Source: Chloroflexota bacterium (GTDB lineage Bacteria > Chloroflexota > Anaerolineae > Anaerolineales > Anaerolineaceae). From it: a DNA stretch of 64,000 bases. Each line of letters starts with the position of its first letter. Positions within the stretch are counted from its first letter, which is position 1. The DNA is taken from positions 310,001 through 374,000 of the forward strand of contig JAKAFP010000005.1 of assembly GCA_021825925.1 (NCBI GenBank), read 5' to 3'. The notes beneath the pieces were generated by a model. That model was not told the origin of the DNA. It saw only the letters and a list, made by a program, of their open reading frames with translations, and did no database searches. Made by a program: the position numbers and the translations under genes. This document shows, in pieces, positions 31,029 through 59,108 of this stretch.

Positions 31029-32312
31029 ATGTCTCAATCAACCACTGCTCAACCCATCACGATTCAAAACGGTAAACTCAATATTCCAGACCACCCGGTT
31101 ATCCCCTTTTTGGAAGGTGACGGGGTCGGACCTGAAGTCATGCGCTCCACCCAGCAGGTGGTGAATGCCGCCGTCCTCAAAGCTTATAAAGGCGACCGCT
31201 CCATCGAATGGCGGGAAGTGTTGGCCGGACAAAAAGCAGAAAAACTGACCGGTAATTCCCTGCCCGAAGAAACCATCAACGCCTTCAAGACTTATCACAT
31301 CGGTCTCAAGGGTCCGTTAAACACATCAGTGGGTGAAGGGGCGCGTTCATTGAATGTCGCCCTGCGCAAGGAGCTGGATCTGTATGCCAACTTCCGCCCG
31401 ACCAAGTATTACTCCCCGGCACCCTCCCCCCTGTCCCATCCTGAACGTGTGGATGTGGTGCTCTTTCGCGAAAATACTGAAGACGTCTACTCAGGCATCG
31501 AGTTCGCCGCCGGCACGGATGGCGCCAGGGCGCTGCTCGAATTCTTCAGAACTCAGTCACCAGAAAATTACGCCCGCATCCGCTTTCCAGAGACCTCCGC
31601 TCTGGGGTTGAAACCTGTCTCAGCCGAAGGTTCCCAGCGCATCGTACGCAGCGCGATCGAGCACGCACTGAAAGCAAAGCGCAAATCGGTCAGCCTGCTG
31701 CACAAAGGCAACATCATGAAGTTCACCGAAGGCGGATTCATGAACTGGGGTTACGATGTGGCTGAAAAAGAATTCGCCGCGGAAACCTACAGCATGCGCC
31801 AGCATAAACGCCTCGCCGCAGAAAAAGGGGAAGAGGCCGCTGGTGAAGCATTAAAAATCGCCAAAGCTGCCGGTAAGGTGATCGTCAAAGATATGATCGT
31901 GGATGCCGCCTTTGAACGCTCGATTGCCCACCCCGAAGACATGGATGTGCTGGTCACCACCAACCTGAACGGCGATTACCTCTCAGACGCGTTGGCCGCG
32001 CTGGTCGGCGGATTGGGCATCGCCCCAGGGGCGAACATCAACTACCTCACCGGCGATGCAGTTTTTGAAGCCGTGCACGGCACCGCACCTGATATCGCCG
32101 GAAAAGACATGGCCAATCCGTGTTCATTGATCTTGTCATCCGTGCTGATGCTGCGCTACATAGGTTGGACGGAAGCCGCCGACCTGGTAGAGAATTCCTT
32201 GAGCCAGACCTTTGCCGGAGGGAACGTCACCCCTGATTTTGCCAGCCAGATGGAAAACGCCATCAGCTGCTCCACCACCCAATTTACTGCCTTGCTGCTT
32301 CAAAGGATCTAA
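31029..32312 (+). CDS. icd: Isocitrate dehydrogenase, E. coli-like fold with NAD-type specificity residues
   Basis: 427 residues. It oxidatively decarboxylates isocitrate to 2-oxoglutarate. Substrate loop EGARSLNVALRKELDLYANFRP includes the Ser107 equivalent of the E. coli Ser113 phosphorylation site. FRENTEDVYSGIE and GDYLSD (metal Asp) are intact. In the coenzyme site the E. coli NADP determinants Lys344-Tyr345, Val351, Tyr391 and Arg395 are replaced by Asp355-Ile356, Ala362, Pro402 and Ser406. The Asp/Ile/Ala set is that of NAD-dependent IDHs and of the classic engineered switch. NAD use is therefore predicted. It is 1 base before the aconitase start. Confidence 0.95.
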   Translation: MSQSTTAQPITIQNGKLNIPDHPVIPFLEGDGVGPEVMRSTQQVVNAAVLKAYKGDRSIEWREVLAGQKAEKLTGNSLPEETINAFKTYHIGLKGPLNTSVGEGARSLNVALRKELDLYANFRPTKYYSPAPSPLSHPERVDVVLFRENTEDVYSGIEFAAGTDGARALLEFFRTQSPENYARIRFPETSALGLKPVSAEGSQRIVRSAIEHALKAKRKSVSLLHKGNIMKFTEGGFMNWGYDVAEKEFAAETYSMRQHKRLAAEKGEEAAGEALKIAKAAGKVIVKDMIVDAAFERSIAHPEDMDVLVTTNLNGDYLSDALAALVGGLGIAPGANINYLTGDAVFEAVHGTAPDIAGKDMANPCSLILSSVLMLRYIGWTEAADLVENSLSQTFAGGNVTPDFASQMENAISCSTTQFTALLLQRI

Positions 32313-32313
32313 G

Positions 32314-34998
32314 ATGAGCCCAAAAAACACCAACCCTTATATCACAGAATTTATCTCCCTTGGCGGAAAGAAATTCCATTACTATCCGCTTCACCAGCTT
32401 AAAGGTGTCGGATCTTTACATGTAGAAGCCCTTCCCTACTGCATCCGCATCTTGTTGGAAAGCGCCATGCGGAATTTCAATGATCAGACCATCACCGCCC
32501 AGAACGTCAAGGATCTGGCCAGTTGGACCAGCATCCCCGGCGATCACGGGCTTGTTTCGTTTAATCCAGCACGCATCCTCCTACAGGACCTGACCGGCGT
32601 GCCCCTGGTTGTAGATCTGGCAGCCCTGCGTGCGGCTGCCCAAAGGAGCGGCAAAGACCCCGCCGGCATCAATCCGTTGATCCCGGTGGACCTGGTCATT
32701 GACCACTCCATCCAGGTGGATTTCGCCGGTTCTGAGGAAGCCCTCGCCAGGAACACCAAACTCGAATACACGCGTAACCGCGAACGTTACGAGTTCCTCA
32801 AATGGGCGCAGTCCTCCATCCACAACTTCAGGGTCATCCCCCCTGCATCAGGTATTGTCCATCAAGTTAATCTTGAATACCTGGCCCAGGTGGCCATGAC
32901 CAGTGCGGAAGGCGGTGAGACCTGGGTATACCCCGACAGCGTCTTCGGCACGGATTCACATACCACCATGATCAACGGTCTGGGTGTCTTGGGCTGGGGC
33001 GTGGGCGGCATCGAAGCCGCAGCCGCCATGCTGCGCCAGCCGGTGGAAACCCTCATTCCTGATGTGATCGGCGTGAACGTGACAGGAGTCCTCAAAGAAG
33101 GCGTTTCGCCCACGGATGTGGTGCTCACCCTCACACATATGCTGCGCAAACTGGGCGTGGTGAACAAGATGGTTGAATTTTACGGTGATGGCCTGGAGGC
33201 ACTCAGTGTACCCGACCGCGCCATGCTTTCCAATATGGCTCCCGAGTACGGCGCCACTGCGGCTTACTTCCCCGTGGACCAGGCCGTGCTGGACTTTATG
33301 CGCCTCACCGGCCGCCCGGAAGAGCTGGTCACGCTGGTTGAAGCCTACTTTAAAGCGCAAGGTCTGTTCCGCTCAAGTGGAAGTGTTGTACCGAGCTACA
33401 CCAGCAAGATCAACCTGGAACTGGATCAAATCGAACCCTCTCTGGCCGGACCCAAACGACCCCAAGATCTGGTTTCGCTGGATCTGGTCAGCGACAACTT
33501 CAAATCCGCACTTGCTGCGCCGCTGGATGCACGAGGATATGCACTATCCGCCGAATCTCTGGATAAAAAGGTCTCGCTCAAACTGAAAGAAGGCAACGCT
33601 GAACTGACGCACGGTTCTGTAGTGATCGCTTCGATCACATCCTGCACCAACACCTCTGACCCGTTCGCGTTGATCAGCGCCGGATTGCTGGCCAAAAAGG
33701 CCGCAGCCCTTGGTCTGAGGGCTCAACCATTTGTAAAGACGAGTTTTGCACCCGGCTCCAAGGCCGTGATGGATTATCTGCACAAAGCCGGACTGGTGGA
33801 GCCACTCGAGCAGCTGGGCTTCCATCTGGTCGGCTACGGCTGCGCCACCTGCATCGGCAACTCGGGTCCGCTCGACCCGGCCATCGGGGATGCAATCACG
33901 CAAAACAAATTGGTGGCCGCATCGGTGATCTCGGGCAACCGCAACTTTGAGGGCCGCGTCCATCCGCTGGTACAGGCCAACTACCTGGCATCCCCCGCCC
34001 TGGTGGTGGCTTACGCCATCAGCGGCAGCGTGGCGCGGAACATGAGACAGGATCCGCTCGGATATGGCAACAACGGTGAACCGGTCTTCTTAAAGGATAT
34101 TTGGCCTTCAAACCAGGAAGTTTATAACACCCTGAACCGGGTGGTCACACCGCAGGTCTATCGCGATGCCTATGCGAATATTACTGAGGGCGGTGAACTG
34201 TGGAAGGCGATCAAAGTGGAACCCAGCCTGCTTTATCCATGGAACCCGACTTCAACCTACATTCTTGAGTCGCCTTTCTGCGAAACCAGCAGCAACAACG
34301 ATACTGATCTGGTCAGTGCGCGTGTGTTAGCCATCTTCGGCGATTCGATCACCACCGACCACATCTCTCCGGCCGGCTCCATCCCAGCCACCTCACCCGC
34401 TGCGGAATACCTGCGCAGCAAGGGCGTACAGCCCGCGGATTTCAATTCCTATGGGGCTCGGCGCGGCAACCATGAAGTTATGGAACGCGGCACCTTTGCC
34501 AATATTCGCATCAAAAACCTGATGCTGCCGGGCATCGAAGGAAGTCAGACCAGGCATTACCCTGACGGTGAACAGATGAGCATCTTTGCCGCCGCCCAAC
34601 TCTACAAACAGGACGGTGTGGACACTGTCATTTTGGCCGGCAAAGAATACGGCACCGGTTCCAGCCGGGACTGGGCTGCCAAAGGTCCATTACTGCTGGG
34701 CGTTAAAGCCGTGATCGCTGAATCGTTTGAACGCATCCACCGCTCCAATTTGGCGGGCATGGGCGTGCTGCCCCTGCAGTTCCTGGCTAAGGACAACCCC
34801 AAAGACCTGGGCCTGGACGGTTCTGAACTGATCTCCTTCCAGGGGTTGAACCAGTTGACCCCCGGTGGCATGATCTCGGTCACTGCCCACAAGAAAGGCG
34901 GCGTCACGGTGCGCTTTTTGGTGAAGGTGCTGCTTAATTCAGAAGCAGAGATCAAGCTTTGGCAAAACGGCGGCATTTTGAAGTCGTTTGTGAATTAG
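32314..34998 (+). CDS. acnA: Aconitate hydratase, AcnA/IRP type
   Basis: 894 residues. It isomerises citrate to isocitrate with a [4Fe-4S] cluster. Cluster ligands are Cys444 (SCTNTSDP), Cys510 and Cys513 ([11 protein letters not shown]). Other motifs: [28 protein letters not shown]-like stretch, [15 protein letters not shown] in the swivelling domain, and [14 protein letters not shown]. I place the start at ATG 32314 (AAAGGA upstream), 1 base after the icd stop; the frame is open further upstream within icd. A decayed duplicate of its last ~330 bases lies 870 bases downstream, and its present terminator and tail may have come with the AT-rich insertion. Confidence 0.96.
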   Translation: [894 protein letters not shown]

Positions 34999-35002
34999 AG
35001 AT

Positions 35003-35149: not shown

Positions 35150-35632
35150 TTATTTCCACTGCTCCATAAATTCTTCTATTGCCGCGCAAATTGGACGGGT
35201 GCTTTTGGGAATGGCGATATTCCAACGAACATCTAATTCATTGTTTTCGTTCTGCCATATCATGAATTGTGAAACATCAATATTTAATTGGTCATCAATT
35301 CGATTTTCAGCACTAATGGGTAAGTATTTACCAAATGGAAAATAGTTGAAAGCAATAGTCTTACCAGTAATAATATTCTTGATTCTGACGCTGAATTGCT
35401 CATATTGTCCTTTAGTACCGGAACTTAACAATGTAATTATTCCCCTTGTAGTTCCGTTTAAGTTACAAACACCACGGTTCTTGTTCCAGATGATAGGTAT
35501 TTCAAATTCAAAAGGTTCAAGAATTTTTCGAAAGCCCACTTTTGCATCAACAATATGAGTGACACCATTACCTTTGGATATTAATTCAGAATTTTGGTTC
35601 TCGTATATGATCTTCATTTGATTTCTACCCAT
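35150..35632 (-). CDS. Unknown protein in an AT-rich insertion behind aconitase
   Basis: 160 residues, no recognised domain. The predicted content is beta-rich in the first two thirds (KIIYENQNSEL, FEFEIPIIWN, GIITLLSS) with a C-terminal helix (PICAAIEEFMEQWK). The last part (STRPICAAIEEFMEQW) loosely recalls small bacterial effector or immunity-like proteins but I would not assign a function. Strongly AT-biased compared with the flanking TCA genes. It is in opposite orientation to aconitase, and a decayed aconitase tail lies beyond it. This points to horizontal arrival. Confidence 0.55.
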   Translation of the reverse strand: MGRNQMKIIYENQNSELISKGNGVTHIVDAKVGFRKILEPFEFEIPIIWNKNRGVCNLNGTTRGIITLLSSGTKGQYEQFSVRIKNIITGKTIAFNYFPFGKYLPISAENRIDDQLNIDVSQFMIWQNENNELDVRWNIAIPKSTRPICAAIEEFMEQWK

Positions 35633-35871: not shown

Positions 35872-36140
35872 TTTGCTGCCAGGGGTCCGTTTCTGCTGGG
35901 CGTCAAAACCGTGATCGCCGAATCGGTTGAACGCATCCACCGCGCCAACCTGGCGGGCAAGGAATGCTGAACTGATCTCTTTCCATGGATTTAACTAGTT
36001 GACCCCAGGCGGCATGATCTCGGTCACTGTCCACAAGAAAGGCGGCGTCACGGTGTGTGTCCTGACGTAGGTGCAGCTCAATTCAGAGGTAGTGATCAAC
36101 CTGTGTCAAAACGCGGGGATTTTGAAGTCGTTTGTGAAAA
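35872..36140 (+). pseudogene. Decayed duplicate of the aconitase 3' end
   Basis: This segment aligns with 34671-34993 of acnA in the same orientation: CTGCTGGGCGTC, GAACGCATCCACCGC, GGCATGATCTCGGTCACTG, AAGAAAGGCGGCGTCACGGTG and TTTTGAAGTCGTTTGTGAA are shared. By hand the last ~128 bases are about 84% identical. About 60 bases are deleted in the middle, and a TAG interrupts the frame (GTC CTG ACG TAG). It cannot encode a working protein. It is followed by its own GC-rich hairpin, perhaps the ancestral acnA terminator. Confidence 0.88.
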
Positions 36141-36166
36141 AGAGTGAGTTTGATTTGTTAAAGACG

Positions 36167-54572: not shown

Positions 54573-55013
54573 TTGTCTCAAACCCCTTTTTGGAAAATCA
54601 AACCGCTTGACCAGCTCTCGCCCGAAGAGTGGGAGTCACTATGTGACGGCTGCGCCAAGTGCTGCCTGATCAAATTTGAAGATGAAGACACTGGGCGGAT
54701 CTATCACACCAACGTGGTGTGCGAACTGCTTGAGATCTTCCATTGCAAATGTACCCGTTATGCCGAACGATCGGTTCTGGTGCCGGAATGCCTCACCCTG
54801 GATGCCACCCTGGCCGGCAGCTTAAAATGGATGCCCGACACCTGCGCCTACCGTCTGTTGGCAGAAGGCAAGGACCTGCCCATCTGGCACCCGCTGGTCA
54901 GCGGCGACCCCAAATCAGTGCATCAAGCCGGCTTGTCCGTACGCGGCAAGGTGGTCTCTGCGCGGGATGTGGATCCTGACGATCTGCCTGATTATGTGGT
55001 GGACGACGATTAG
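54573..55013 (+). CDS. YcgN/UPF0260 Cys-cluster protein
   Basis: 146 residues. WKIKPLDQLSPEEWESLCDGCAKCCLIKFEDEDTGRIYHTNVVCELLEIFHCKCTRYAER followed by PECLTL and LPDTCAYRLLAEGKDLP match YcgN-type proteins with conserved Cys, presumably a metal or Fe-S site. TTG start at 54573 with TTGGAG about 9 bases upstream. The biological role in bacteria is unknown. It precedes the aldolase gene by 130 bases. Confidence 0.88.
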   Translation: MSQTPFWKIKPLDQLSPEEWESLCDGCAKCCLIKFEDEDTGRIYHTNVVCELLEIFHCKCTRYAERSVLVPECLTLDATLAGSLKWMPDTCAYRLLAEGKDLPIWHPLVSGDPKSVHQAGLSVRGKVVSARDVDPDDLPDYVVDDD

Positions 55014-55142
55014 ATGTAGGGGTGGGTTCCAAACCCACCCGTTTATTACCCGTCCAGACAACCTGCGCTAAAACCAAAAACAGGAATATAATTGTGCCCA
55101 GACCATCCCTCCCCTCGGGGAGCTAATCTTAAGGAGAATGAC

Positions 55143-56093
55143 ATGATCGTTACCACGAAAGAATTGTTTAAAGCCGCTTACGGCAAGTACGCCATTGGTG
55201 CCTATAACATCAACAACCTTGAACAAACCATGGGTCTTTTCCGTGGATGCGTTGACAGCCAGGCTCCCTTTATCATCCAGATCAGCAAGGGTGCTCGCAG
55301 CTATACGCATAAACTCATGCTCGAAGGCCTCATCCGCTCCGCCGACCAGGTCTTCCCGGATGCCATTTTTGCCGTCCATCTTGACCACGGCGATGAAGAA
55401 ACCTGCTACGACTGCATTAACAGCGGATTCTATTCCTCCGTCATGATTGATGCTTCAGCCGAACCTTTCGAAAAGAACGTCGAGATCACCAAACGTGTGG
55501 TCGAAGCCGCCCACAAAAAGGGCATCGTTGTCGAAGCCGAACTCGGCCAGCTCGGTGGCGTTGAAGAACACGTCCAGGTGGATGAAGCCAACGCCAAACT
55601 CACCGACCCCAAACAGGCTGCTGAATTCGTTAAACTCACCGGCTGCGATTCACTGGCCTGTGCCATCGGCACCAGCCATGGCGCCTTCAAATTCAGCGGT
55701 TCCCAGGGTCTGCACTTCGACGTTCTCGAACAGATCCAAAAAGTGCTGCCCAACTTCCCGCTTGTCATGCACGGTTCATCCTCCGTGCCCCAGGACGAGG
55801 TGGAACGCATCAACGCCGCCGGTGGCAAACTGGCCGGCGCCAAGGGTGTGGATCCTACTCAGTTCAAACGAGCCGCCGAACTCGGCGTCACCAAGATCAA
55901 CATTGACACAGACGGCCGCCTTGTCTGGACTCGTGTTCACCGTGAATACTTCCTCCAACATCCCGAGAACTTCGATCTCCGCCCTGTTGGCAAGATCTTC
56001 ATGGCCGAATATGCCAAGTTCATTGAACAGAAGAACGAATACCTCGGTAGCAACAACCAGATTGATGCCGTTCGCAAAATTCTCAGCAAGTAA
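55143..56093 (+). CDS. Fructose-bisphosphate aldolase, class II
   Basis: 316 residues from ATG 55143 (AAGGAGAATG). It cleaves fructose-1,6-bisphosphate in glycolysis or builds it in gluconeogenesis with a metal cofactor. Signatures: GAYNINNLEQTMG, VHLDHGDEETCYDCINSGF, VEAELGQLGG, GTSHGAFKF, LVMHGSSSVP and KINIDTDGRL. His and Asp metal ligands are intact. Codon use is strongly biased to C-ending codons as in a highly expressed gene. The length fits the shorter (class IIA/IIB intermediate) FbaA-like group. Confidence 0.94.
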   Translation: MIVTTKELFKAAYGKYAIGAYNINNLEQTMGLFRGCVDSQAPFIIQISKGARSYTHKLMLEGLIRSADQVFPDAIFAVHLDHGDEETCYDCINSGFYSSVMIDASAEPFEKNVEITKRVVEAAHKKGIVVEAELGQLGGVEEHVQVDEANAKLTDPKQAAEFVKLTGCDSLACAIGTSHGAFKFSGSQGLHFDVLEQIQKVLPNFPLVMHGSSSVPQDEVERINAAGGKLAGAKGVDPTQFKRAAELGVTKINIDTDGRLVWTRVHREYFLQHPENFDLRPVGKIFMAEYAKFIEQKNEYLGSNNQIDAVRKILSK

Positions 56094-56110
56094 TTTGTCG
56101 AGCATGCCAA

Positions 56111-56144
56111 GCCCCCGCAGTTTTTTGAAACTGCGGGGGCTTTT
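56111..56144 (+). terminator. Strong intrinsic terminator after the aldolase
   Basis: A 13-bp stem GCCCCCGCAGTTT / AAACTGCGGGGGC, 4-base loop, then TTTT. Confidence 0.9.
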
Positions 56145-56192
56145 CTATGGTTACAAGAAACTGGGGGTTTTGATAATTCCCCAGTTTAGATT

Positions 56193-56270
56193 TTAGTTTG
56201 GGCTGGCAGCAAATTGCTGGCCGAATTCAAAGCAACGATCCGTGGTCTCGCCATCCGGAGCCCACTTTTC
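56193..56270 (-). pseudogene. Decayed tail of a flavodiiron gene
   Basis: On the minus strand this reads EKWAPDGETTDRCFEFGQQF-AASPN-stop in an open frame of 25 codons plus stop. It matches the last 25 codons of the intact flavodiiron gene (57918-57995), 67 of 78 bases identical by hand. Nothing upstream continues the homology; it is a 3' fragment, in the same orientation as the intact gene and about 1.7 kb away. A small hairpin (56158-56187) follows it. The rest of 56145-56555 is AT-rich with no gene seen. Confidence 0.9.
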
Positions 56271-56555
56271 TTATATCATTTTTTTGTAAAATTTGAAACA
56301 AGTAAACCCAACTTCATTATTCAAGTTGTCGTAAAGAATTTTGCGGAACGGAAGAAATAACACAAAAATCTATGTTCAATCACTTTCCCATTTAATCAAT
56401 AGTAAAGTTGTGGGAAAATAATTAATCAATAATTTATTGAGATAGATGTTTTTAAACTTTTTTTGGTGGATTTTTGGAATAACTATACTATTTTAGAAAA
56501 AATATATAATACTAAAAATAATTGATCTTAGGATCTTATTCAAGGAGGATAGCGG

Positions 56556-57725
56556 ATGCCAAATAAGTGGTTTGACAAAATTATTAATAAGCTAACAAGT
56601 AATTTGTCTGATGACGATGGCCCTCCAGATCCATCTGGACATGTAGTTTTCAAACCTGAGATGCTCGAGAAACTTTATGATCCTGATGAAAAAGTACGAG
56701 CGGCGACTGCTGAATTATTGGGTCATACGGCTGATGAACGCGCAATTGAAGCCCTGATCACGGCGATAAGTGATCACTCTTGGAGCGGTTATCGAGAGGC
56801 GACAGAAATTTCACTGGTCAACCATCTAGGGAACGAGGAAAGTGGAAGTATAGCGATAACAAGGCATTCAAACACACTTACTTCAGCCGTTCAGGCACTT
56901 GTGAGATTAAAAGCAACAACAGCAACTCCAACAATTGTAAAATTGTTAAATGATGATAGGGCTGATCCAATTAGGTCCACGATAGTACAAGCTCTTGGCA
57001 AAATTGGCAATCCGGACGCAATAGAAGGACTTTTGGAACGATATAGAAAATGCATATTGGAGATTAAAAAACCATATGCAATCAGCCTTAAACAACTGGG
57101 TTGGAAACCCGATAGTCCACAGGAAGCAGCAGAATTTTATCTGGTCCTTGAAGACAATGATGCCCTTCTACAAACTGGACAAGGCGGTGCAGACCGTTTA
57201 TTCGAGATAGCTAACAAAGGGTACCCTGGAGATAAATATACTGAAAAAATATTCGAAATCTTGGTACAGATGGGAGACCAACGTGTAGCAGATATTATAG
57301 TAAAGTGGATTCAAATTCCTAAGCGCCAAGTGGCCTCCGAAAACCAGATAAATTTGTCTACTTATAGGCTCGAGGAACGTAAATTGATGGCGCTTACTCG
57401 GTATTTAGCTCGATTGAAGGATCCTCGTGTCAACGAGTATTACCTCTGGGTATTAAACAATACTAATGATTATCAAATTTTTAATCAGGTTGTGAGCTTT
57501 GGAGATCCTTCGTTAGCAGGTGCAATTCTCGAGTGTGCTGGTAGGAATAATTGGATGCGCGCTTTGGCAAAAAATTATATTTCTGATCAATTTCCAGAGG
57601 GTACAGAAAAATTATTTGAAACCATGAAACCCTACTTAGAAAACGCAGGTTTTCTCCCTTATGTTAAAGATATGTGGGATAACGCTTTAGATGATGTATT
57701 GGCTAAACAAAAACTTCGAAAATAA
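56556..57725 (+). CDS. HEAT-repeat protein of unknown function
   Basis: 389 residues, cytoplasmic, with HEAT-type helical repeats (PDEKVRAATAELLGHTADERAIEALITAI; STIVQALGKIGNPDAIEGLLERY). AT-rich, with a strong ribosome site (CAAGGAGGATAG). Helical-repeat proteins act as binding scaffolds; no catalytic motif is visible. It sits between the flavodiiron gene and a decayed tail of that gene, in opposite orientation to both. Its composition stands out from the neighbours, pointing to horizontal arrival. Confidence 0.8.
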   Translation: MPNKWFDKIINKLTSNLSDDDGPPDPSGHVVFKPEMLEKLYDPDEKVRAATAELLGHTADERAIEALITAISDHSWSGYREATEISLVNHLGNEESGSIAITRHSNTLTSAVQALVRLKATTATPTIVKLLNDDRADPIRSTIVQALGKIGNPDAIEGLLERYRKCILEIKKPYAISLKQLGWKPDSPQEAAEFYLVLEDNDALLQTGQGGADRLFEIANKGYPGDKYTEKIFEILVQMGDQRVADIIVKWIQIPKRQVASENQINLSTYRLEERKLMALTRYLARLKDPRVNEYYLWVLNNTNDYQIFNQVVSFGDPSLAGAILECAGRNNWMRALAKNYISDQFPEGTEKLFETMKPYLENAGFLPYVKDMWDNALDDVLAKQKLRK

Positions 57726-57835
57726 TAGAATACTTCCAAGATAATATCGTGAACCTAATTACTTAAAAAATCATCATGTAATTGAAAGCACAAGACACAA
57801 GCATCAAAACTCAGTTTAATGGTTGATATGATTTG

Positions 57836-57870
57836 AAAGCAGCAAGAGTCTTGAAGATTCCTGCTGCTTT
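57836..57870. terminator. Bidirectional hairpin between the HEAT-repeat and flavodiiron genes
   Basis: A 9-bp perfect stem (57836-57844 with 57862-57870) extended by further weaker pairs; T-rich on either side. Confidence 0.7.
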
Positions 57871-57917
57871 GTTAATGCAAACCATCTGGAGATTTTTTAA
57901 AATCCACGGTTTAGATA

Positions 57918-59108
57918 TTAGTTTATATTAACGGCAAATTGCTGTCCGAATTCAAAACAGCGGTCCGTGGTCTCGCCATCCGGAGCCCACTTTTCACGCA
58001 GGCCTTCGTTGACGACTTCAAAACCTGCCTCACCCAATCGAGTCGAAATAAGTTTTACGGCTTCACCGCTCCAGCCATAACAGCCAAAAGCAGCCGCTTT
58101 TTTGTTTTTAAATTTCATTCCGCGCATTTCTTCAAGCACTGCCGCCACATCGCGCAGCATGCCGTTGTTGACCGTGGAAGATCCGATCAGCACGGCCTTG
58201 GATCTGAACATCTCGGTCATCAGATCAGTCTTATCCATGCGAGCCAGGTTATAAAGCTTGACGGTCGTACCGGGTGCGGCATTGACAATGCCTTTTACGA
58301 TCACCTCCGCCATCTGACGGGTTCCATCCCACATGGTGTCATAAGCCACTGTGATCTGATCTTCGGCATAATTCTCGGCCCACTTCAAATATTGGTCCAC
58401 GATCTGCAGCGGTTCATTACGCCAGATCACGCCATGGCTTGGACAGATCATCTCGATGGGAAGATTCAATGCCTTGAGCTCATTGATCTTTTTTGTTACC
58501 GCCGGATTGTAAGGCGTAAGGATGTTGGCATAATACTTCATGGCTTCCTGCAACAACTCGCCTTGATCCACCAGATCGCTGTAAAGACATTCAGAAGCCA
58601 GGTGCTGTCCAAAGGCGTCGTTGCTGAAAAGAATATTATCTCCGGTCAGGAAGGTCATCATGGTATCGGGCCAGTGCAGCATGGGAGCTTCAATAAAAAC
58701 AAGTTCCTTGGAACCCAGGCTCAAACGCTCGCCGGTTTTTACAACATGGAAGTTCCAATCCTTATGATACTGTCCGCGTAAAGATTTTTCACCATTGGCT
58801 GTGCAGTAGATCGGCGTGTTGGGAATATGCCGCATCAATTCAGGCATCGCCCCACTGTGATCCACCTCACCGTGATTGATAACAATGTAATCAATTTTCT
58901 CCAGCGGGATCTCGTTTTTCAGGTTTTCAACGAATTCCTTATCAAAGGGCATCCAGACCGTATCAATCAGGACTGTTTTTTCGTCACGGATCAAATAGGC
59001 ATTGTAACTGGAGCCTTTGTGTGTTGAGTATTCTTCTCCATGAAATTTTCGCAGTTCCCAATCAATTTTACCCACCCATTTGCAATTTGCATTAATTTGG
59101 ATCGCCAT
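57918..59108 (-). CDS. FprA-type flavodiiron protein
   Basis: 396 residues. The N-terminal metallo-beta-lactamase domain carries the diiron ligands (NHGEVDHSG, APMLHWPDTM, FSNDAFGQH, CPSHGVIWR). The C-terminal flavodoxin domain (~250-396) binds FMN (AYDTMWDGTRQMA, GSSTVNNGMLRD, FGCYGWSGEAV). These enzymes reduce O2 to water and/or NO to N2O using rubredoxin or F420H2 as donor and protect anaerobes. No extra C-terminal reductase domain is present. Start ATG at 59108 (CAGAGG upstream). A decayed copy of its tail lies at 56193-56270. Confidence 0.94.
   Translation of the reverse strand: MAIQINANCKWVGKIDWELRKFHGEEYSTHKGSSYNAYLIRDEKTVLIDTVWMPFDKEFVENLKNEIPLEKIDYIVINHGEVDHSGAMPELMRHIPNTPIYCTANGEKSLRGQYHKDWNFHVVKTGERLSLGSKELVFIEAPMLHWPDTMMTFLTGDNILFSNDAFGQHLASECLYSDLVDQGELLQEAMKYYANILTPYNPAVTKKINELKALNLPIEMICPSHGVIWRNEPLQIVDQYLKWAENYAEDQITVAYDTMWDGTRQMAEVIVKGIVNAAPGTTVKLYNLARMDKTDLMTEMFRSKAVLIGSSTVNNGMLRDVAAVLEEMRGMKFKNKKAAAFGCYGWSGEAVKLISTRLGEAGFEVVNEGLREKWAPDGETTDRCFEFGQQFAVNIN

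Follow-up and report, generated by a model that had tools for sequence, protein, structure and literature searches.

A HEAT-repeat gene in the genome of a Chloroflexota bacterium of the family Anaerolineaceae (GenBank assembly GCA_021825925.1) stands between a class II fructose-bisphosphate aldolase gene and a flavodiiron gene, and is accompanied by a second, displaced copy of the flavodiiron 3′ end. The locus lies in a 64,000-nucleotide (nt) stretch of contig JAKAFP010000005.1 (positions 310,001 to 374,000; G000:C3:310001-374000 in our numbering), hereafter the window, whose own positions are used throughout; the assembly, G000, comprises 3.40 Mb in 15 contigs and is estimated to be 84% complete and 5.6% contaminated. 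We favor, with modest confidence, an origin in which DNA of a relative, carrying its own flavodiiron tail together with the HEAT gene, was joined to the resident gene by one homologous exchange that displaced the native tail. The resulting gene-tail scar is the record of a known kind of event and not a new mobile element. The locus is composed of the following parts.

55092..56093, plus strand: class II fructose-bisphosphate aldolase, the left neighbor (Pfam F_bP_aldolase, E 9e-83)
56109..56142: native terminator hairpin in the aldolase–flavodiiron gap (fold of 56098-56150, −30.7 kcal/mol, z −6.8)
56161..56192, minus strand: native DNA directly 3′ of the displaced flavodiiron stop, capable of forming a hairpin (fold of 56155-56195, −12.9 kcal/mol, z −3.2; 23/32 identical to 57886-57917)
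56193..56270, minus strand: remnant, the displaced flavodiiron 3′ end, 25 codons plus stop
56239..56270, minus strand: probable exchange tract, remnant copy (32/32 nt identical to 57964-57995)
56271..57885: inserted AT-rich DNA, in which the HEAT gene is the sole open reading frame (ORF) of at least 60 amino acids (aa)
56556..57725, plus strand: cargo, a 389-aa HEAT-repeat protein whose gene runs convergent to that for flavodiiron (Pfam HEAT_2, E 4e-19)
57836..57870: terminator hairpin in the HEAT–flavodiiron gap (fold of 57825-57880, −18.9 kcal/mol, z −4.8), which presumably arrived together with the HEAT cargo
57918..59108, minus strand: intact flavodiiron gene (NCBIfam PRK11921, E 3e-214)
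57964..57995, minus strand: probable exchange tract, intact-gene copy, placed by the comparison of zones given below

An earlier, sequence-only reading of the window had reported a 78-base direct repeat of the flavodiiron 3′ end beyond an AT-rich, convergent HEAT gene, and both its coordinates and its count of matching bases hold. Positions 56193-56270 repeat the last 25 codons and the stop of the flavodiiron gene, with 67 of 78 bases identical to 57918-57995 and the frame kept (the remnant translates as EKWAPDGETTDRCFEFGQQFAASPN before its stop, while the intact copy ends in QQFAVNIN). Comparison of the window with itself by blastn lengthens the repeat to 110 base pairs (bp; 56161-56270 and 57886-57995, 82%, E 5.6e-22), the similarity running 32 nt beyond the flavodiiron stop. 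The insert between the copies has a guanine-plus-cytosine (GC) fraction of 0.367, whereas the window stands at 0.489 and the flavodiiron gene at 0.474; the value of the HEAT gene by itself, 0.402, is not extreme, as 5 of the 50 ORFs of the window lie lower.

That the HEAT region is an insertion, rather than a decayed tandem gene, follows from the empty site present in two congeners, G001 and G007, in which the aldolase gene directly faces the flavodiiron gene; the acquisition proposed in the sequence-only reading is borne out by these genomes. Alignments to both fall into two parts, one spanning aldolase and remnant as far as 56270, and the other taking in the intact gene, with its start at 57866 for G007 and at 57934 for G001. 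The resident tail and the intergenic DNA were kept, with no resident loss at the insertion. The insertion is seen in G000 only, and the nearest flavodiiron orthologues, those of G007 and G001, are 91% identical. A third congener, G010 (L033:9678-11113), carries unrelated cargo in the same gap, namely a 2′-5′ RNA ligase-like ORF and an AbrB-like/PIN pair ("AbrB-like" by eye), and neither blastn nor tblastn finds a flavodiiron remnant in the G010 gap. Since other genes occupy it in G010, incoming DNA is tolerated in the gap between the convergent aldolase and flavodiiron genes.

The two copies of the repeat differ in a markedly uneven manner, and it is this unevenness that points to two sources. 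Identity is 32/32 at the cargo junction, 35/46 over the rest of the coding part, and 23/32 past the stop, while the same 32-nt zone reaches only 23-25/32 in every pair with or among G001, G007, and G010. The contrast yields P 0.002 against the next 46 nt and P 0.0007 against the 78 nt, values that are somewhat optimistic because the edge of the repeat is itself defined by similarity. Divergence in the 46-nt coding zone is about that between congeneric genes (intact copy to G007, 37/46; remnant to G001, 35/46). The remnant ends in AASPN, a C-terminus of the genus type (AASLN in G001, AAGLN in G010, AGNLN in G007), and retains the native aldolase flank; the intact gene ends in AVNIN. Among the 23 differing sites in the 110 bp, the base found in the relatives is that of the remnant only at 8, of the intact copy only at 5, of both at 8, and of neither at 2. 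Taken together, these comparisons make the intact gene's tail the more likely one to have come with the cargo, the case being a moderate one for the flavodiiron locus alone, and the last 46 nt of the intact gene are probably donor-derived.

A sequence of steps consistent with this arrangement can be proposed. A fragment from a related species, carrying that species' flavodiiron 3′ end followed by a convergent HEAT gene, would probably have entered as linear DNA, lost some sequence at its ends, and closed into a circle. A single recombination with the resident flavodiiron gene, located in the tract of 32 identical nt, would then have left one complete gene, with a resident body and a donor tail, followed by the cargo and by the resident tail displaced beside the aldolase. 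The geometry of a single crossover is present, with a whole gene at one end and a truncated copy at the other in the same orientation, and a tract of perfect identity (32/32 nt) is available; about 30 nt of identity can suffice for exchange. The homeologous exchange suggested by the sequence-only reading accordingly fits the two-zone repeat. The HEAT gene may have brought a benefit. The restriction of such events to gene ends is most simply understood as a filter of selection, since a whole gene survives wherever the copied stretch takes in a gene end, and would call for no preference on the part of an element.

A second locus in the window, at an aconitase gene, is the same kind of event, and its parts are as follows.

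32212..34998, plus strand: aconitase core gene, given as the ORF was called, with a true start that may be further in (Pfam Aconitase, E 2e-148)
35150..35632, minus strand: cargo of 160 aa with no function assigned; an orthologue occupies the same place in G001
35875..36144, plus strand: decayed aconitase 3′ remnant, 70% to 34675-35000, in two matched pieces with internal stops

The sequence-only reading had equated the two layouts and counted them as independent cases. The aconitase case is real, but the histories differ, the aconitase insertion being common to G001 and the flavodiiron insertion confined to G000. In G001 (L076:3082-4206) the aconitase remnant is better kept, over 334 bp at 81% and open for 95 aa, and the 160-aa cargo protein has 86% identity there, with no match in the other 14 of the 16 genomes of the genus; G007 and G010 lack both cargo and remnant. 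The terminators that follow the intact aconitase genes of G000 and G001 resemble each other (87% over 60 columns). The remnant-side terminators have a GAAATC loop in common with G007, as judged by eye, although block identities give no clean separation (0.49 from the G001 remnant-side block to the intact side, 0.47 to G007, and 0.46 to G010). At the 63 sites that differ between the G001 copies, the relatives' base is that of the remnant only at 24, of the intact copy only at 19, of both at 11, and of neither at 9, a polarity with P 1.7e-5 under an assumed model of self-copying followed by decay; against the insert-free G007 and G010 only, the counts are 25 remnant-only and 23 intact-only. Identity between the G001 copies by block is 85%, 64%, and 94%, and the middle block varies among relatives too (75% between G007 and G010).

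Recurrence was assessed by a masked-neighbor scan, in which each called ORF of at least 110 aa was compared with its own 8-kb surroundings with the gene itself masked. The input comprised 871 ORFs in 1.13 Mb (G000, G001, G010) and 677 ORFs in 0.8 Mb (G031, G071), in all 1.93 Mb from five genomes, with 23% of the window's genome sampled. A hit was kept if the hit strand bore no ORF of at least 90 aa, coverage was at most 0.75, the query ended at most 20 aa from its C-terminus, and the distance was at least 500 bp. Distance excluded the rows G000C2 141801 (two hits), G031 127650, 367071, 159266, and 237441, and G071 254237 and 220995; all middle-of-protein hits were excluded as well, as was G010C6 69354-69968, whose source was the DNA scan alone.

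Downstream and on the same strand, the scan found seven C-terminal remnants (three in G000 and one each in G001, G010, G031, and G071), which represent six loci, the aconitase locus appearing twice. The C-terminal controls gave one upstream on the same strand and one on the opposite strand (7 against 1, P 0.035; 6 loci against 1, P 0.06). N-terminal remnants upstream on the same strand numbered four (G000C2 120927; G000C3 121226; G071 378257; and G071 384953, 19 aa and doubtful), and the control geometries for N-terminal ends five (G000C2 109277, upstream and opposite; G000C3 215518, downstream and opposite; G031 363254 and, twice, G071 384953, downstream and same). An asymmetry over controls is clear for C-terminal ends alone. 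Apart from these counts, G001:C48:183866-192168 holds a tandem array of three related ORFs, 811, 822, and 913 aa long, in which short internal repeats occur.

Repeat lengths range over 78-334 bp across the loci, and the cargo is different at each. The process is recurrent in the samples taken, as the sequence-only reading had expected, but the convergent orientation that it built into the pattern is no rule: cargo is convergent at four of seven distinct 3′-end loci (flavodiiron, aconitase, the G010 275-aa locus, and G031) and nonconvergent at the G000 385-aa locus, the G010 204-aa locus, and the G071 locus. A mirror image at a 5′ end is found at G000:C3:119718-121927, where a duplicated gene start lies upstream and an AT-rich gene, Fic-like by eye (119967-121139), lies between. 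The clearest replicate, and a young one, is that of G031 (L218:18817 to L219:828), in which a gene with a GC fraction of 0.62 is followed by two convergent cargo ORFs of 0.42-0.43; the cargo includes a DUF2335 membrane protein that has no counterpart in the 145 further genomes of the family that were searched. The convergent G010 cargo consists of phosphotransferase-like and methyltransferase genes. Within the sample, G001 has other DNA between the neighbor gene and the single gene match at this 275-aa locus, and in the case of the G010 204-aa locus the similarity shared with G000 and G001 ends at the gene. The G000 385-aa and Fic-like loci have no match in relatives within the sample, and no empty site is thus shown for any of these four loci.

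The origin of the HEAT cargo was sought in several collections. Matches to the protein are weak and partial both among 101 relatives (18 with a match at E 1e-3, including G000; best E 9e-11 outside G000) and in 396 genomes of the class (134 of 396, including G000; best E 1.6e-12 outside G000). No HEAT relatives appeared in genome_contigs or viral_contigs, which were covered by pattern scans able to find close relatives only, nor in plasmids (tblastn) or PHROGs, the phage collection lying outside the search. The PADLOC matches are weak and partial (HEAT-ARM_XIII, E 2e-5; WGR_XIII, E 0.001) and are not accepted as evidence that the HEAT gene serves in defense. A candidate aldolase-tail remnant in 57726-57834 was likewise rejected as not significant, its score being reached by 16/1000 single-base shuffles with the window aldolase, 155/1000 with that of G007, and 5/1000 with that of G001. 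The same test including the terminator region gave 14/500 (window), 0/500 (G007), 3/500 (G001), and 26/500 (G010), and by this comparison the terminator region may be homologous to G007 intergenic DNA.

Several results weigh against an incoming tail joined by a single exchange. In the 78 coding nucleotides alone, the relatives' base is that of the intact copy only at 4 sites, of the remnant only at 3, of both at 2, and of neither at 2 (P 0.25), and the P 0.006 obtained for polarity over the 110 bp is too strong, as a coding expectation was put on 32 noncoding nucleotides. Silent differences make up 7 of the 11 coding differences (expected share 0.19), which gives P 0.0015 against simple neutrality and P 0.025-0.08 under a fairer null; the excess at silent sites in the G001 aconitase copies likewise drops to P 0.004-0.11 under the fairer null. 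The G000 aconitase remnant resembles plain decay, with 26 intact-only sites, 6 remnant-only, 13 both, and 1 neither among 46. The hairpin after the intact flavodiiron stop is no better than chance (20/200 shuffles as good), and G001 is without one. Self-duplication explains the G031 repeat (83 bp, 82 identical) equally well. Finally, no donor with a flavodiiron gene beside a HEAT gene was found in the 101 relatives, the 396 class genomes, the two pattern-scanned collections, or the plasmids.

Several of these points suit a long target duplication in the strict sense, in which a transposition-like insertion duplicated the resident gene end over about 110 bp and the copies, identical at first, then diverged; this is possible, though we judge it unlikely. 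Such a process fits the geometry and the empty site (110 bp, 82%; G001 and G007), is compatible with the polarity in the coding nucleotides and with the near-identical repeat of G031, and is known for Helicobacter pylori restriction-modification genes, according to the passages drawn on from PMC1643837, PMC3031569, and PMC3154945. It accords poorly with differences that are distributed as 0/32, then 11/46 and 9/32, and with the G001 aconitase case, in which relatives share the states of the remnant as often as those of the intact copy, though the relatives also vary among themselves in one block of that gene. A linear fragment taken up by homology-facilitated illegitimate recombination, with homologous exchange at one end and, at the other, an illegitimate join within the flavodiiron gene at a microhomology of 3-10 bp, would also yield a chimeric gene and a displaced native end, and would account for the identical first 32 nt as the same resident sequence present twice; it has been invoked for displaced 3′ ends at type VI effector and Rhs loci (PMC5361080). 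We nonetheless consider it improbable, as the products described in PMC3240628 generally delete resident DNA, whereas resident tail and intergenic DNA are kept here.

The two remaining explanations carry far less weight. A nonautonomous integrative element, with gene 3′ ends as attachment sites and an integrase supplied in trans, is very improbable. Integrase islands at gene 3′ ends, for example at icd, replace the gene end and leave the displaced copy on the far side, and the gene-end repeats with a restored gene seen here recall them; C-terminal downstream remnants also outnumber N-terminal upstream ones in the sample (7 to 4). Unlike those islands, the present insert lacks an integrase and no fixed site is seen: repeat lengths vary, the cargo differs, 5′-end cases occur, no common motif is apparent by eye in six junctions, and 56271-57885 contains no recombinase ORF. 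Signs of a transposon or insertion sequence are also lacking there, with no transposase ORF and none of four listed inverted-repeat pairs bounding the insert. The unknown element class using gene 3′ ends that the sequence-only reading had entertained, and the shared cargo families and short junction motifs that it had proposed to look for, thus gain no backing from the sampled loci, where no shared cargo was found; a fixed-site element class is rejected, there being no shared length, motif, cargo, or recombinase. A decayed second flavodiiron gene in tandem, which the same reading had named as the contrary outcome, would ordinarily look like just such a gene remnant beside another copy. This too is rejected, at a probability close to nil, as blastn finds no second copy at the locus in G001, G007, or G010, and the aldolase and flavodiiron genes are adjacent in the first two.

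Certain observations on the neighborhood stand apart from these questions. The true start of the aldolase is likely the ATG at 55143, as the orthologous ORFs of G001 and G010 begin at the equivalent ATG. Between a CxxCxxCC gene and the aldolase (55013-55052), G001 and G010 have about 1.6 kb extra that the window is without, which makes this another variable gap; the extra ~1.6 kb of G010 includes a 500-aa ORF that is LysM-like by eye. The flavodiiron gene (57918-59108) is present at E 1e-100 in 4 of the 16 genomes of the genus (G000, G001, G007, G010), and among the best 80 flavodiiron loci Clostridia and other Firmicutes supply many of the matches next in rank, at 58-68%, a distribution which suggests that the flavodiiron gene may itself have been acquired.

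A homologous exchange with a recircularized fragment, as favored here, has a counterpart in Escherichia coli. According to PMC3240628, a polymerase chain reaction product showing duplication of the lacZ end was obtained from 56 of 60 Lac-minus clones (109-950 bp in the 14 sequenced), which was explained by a partly degraded, recircularized molecule and a single crossing-over; the other 4 clones had apparently arisen by homology-facilitated illegitimate recombination, and single crossing-overs that rebuild a whole gene are described as Lac-plus. Both systems duplicate a gene 3′ end on the two sides of an insert. In E. coli, the donor was a laboratory plasmid with identical homology and the duplicated clones, being Lac-minus, were selected without a whole gene, whereas the event in G000 is old and natural, involves diverged homology, and leaves the gene whole. 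Insertion with long target duplication, frequently of restriction-modification genes in Helicobacter (Nobusato et al., 2000, as cited in passages of PMC1643837, PMC3031569, PMC3154945, PMC2749054, and PMC4978471), similarly joins a foreign gene, a long and variable direct target repeat, and an empty allele in a relative; here, by contrast, the HEAT-repeat gene is the cargo, and the copies have more the look of homologues contributed by two species. At the Rhs and type VI effector loci described in PMC5361080, a native 3′ end is likewise pushed downstream by acquired DNA anchored on a conserved part of a gene, although the new end there is a different effector module, while here it is a homologous end and a separate, convergent gene forms the cargo. 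A literature search for papers combining several terms on partial gene duplication and single crossover found none, and no priority is claimed.

The flavodiiron event is real, is explained by a known kind of event, is recurrent in the samples, and is of mild use in documenting how genes are gained. More tentatively, and with doubt outweighing belief, Anaerolineae may frequently gain cargo by such a swap of tails, in which relatives' DNA is anchored on short, diverged gene 3′ ends through tens of bp of identity, leaving datable tails at perhaps one per few hundred kb. If so, integrase-free gene gain could be read from gene-end scars throughout a phylum. For many foreign genes no mechanism of arrival is visible; displaced tails can show the place of exchange, the amount of identity it drew on, and the survival of an intact recipient gene. 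Counts of such scars in closed genomes could measure how much gene gain proceeds with neither integrase nor transposase, above all in uncultured lineages, which are hard to study by experiment.

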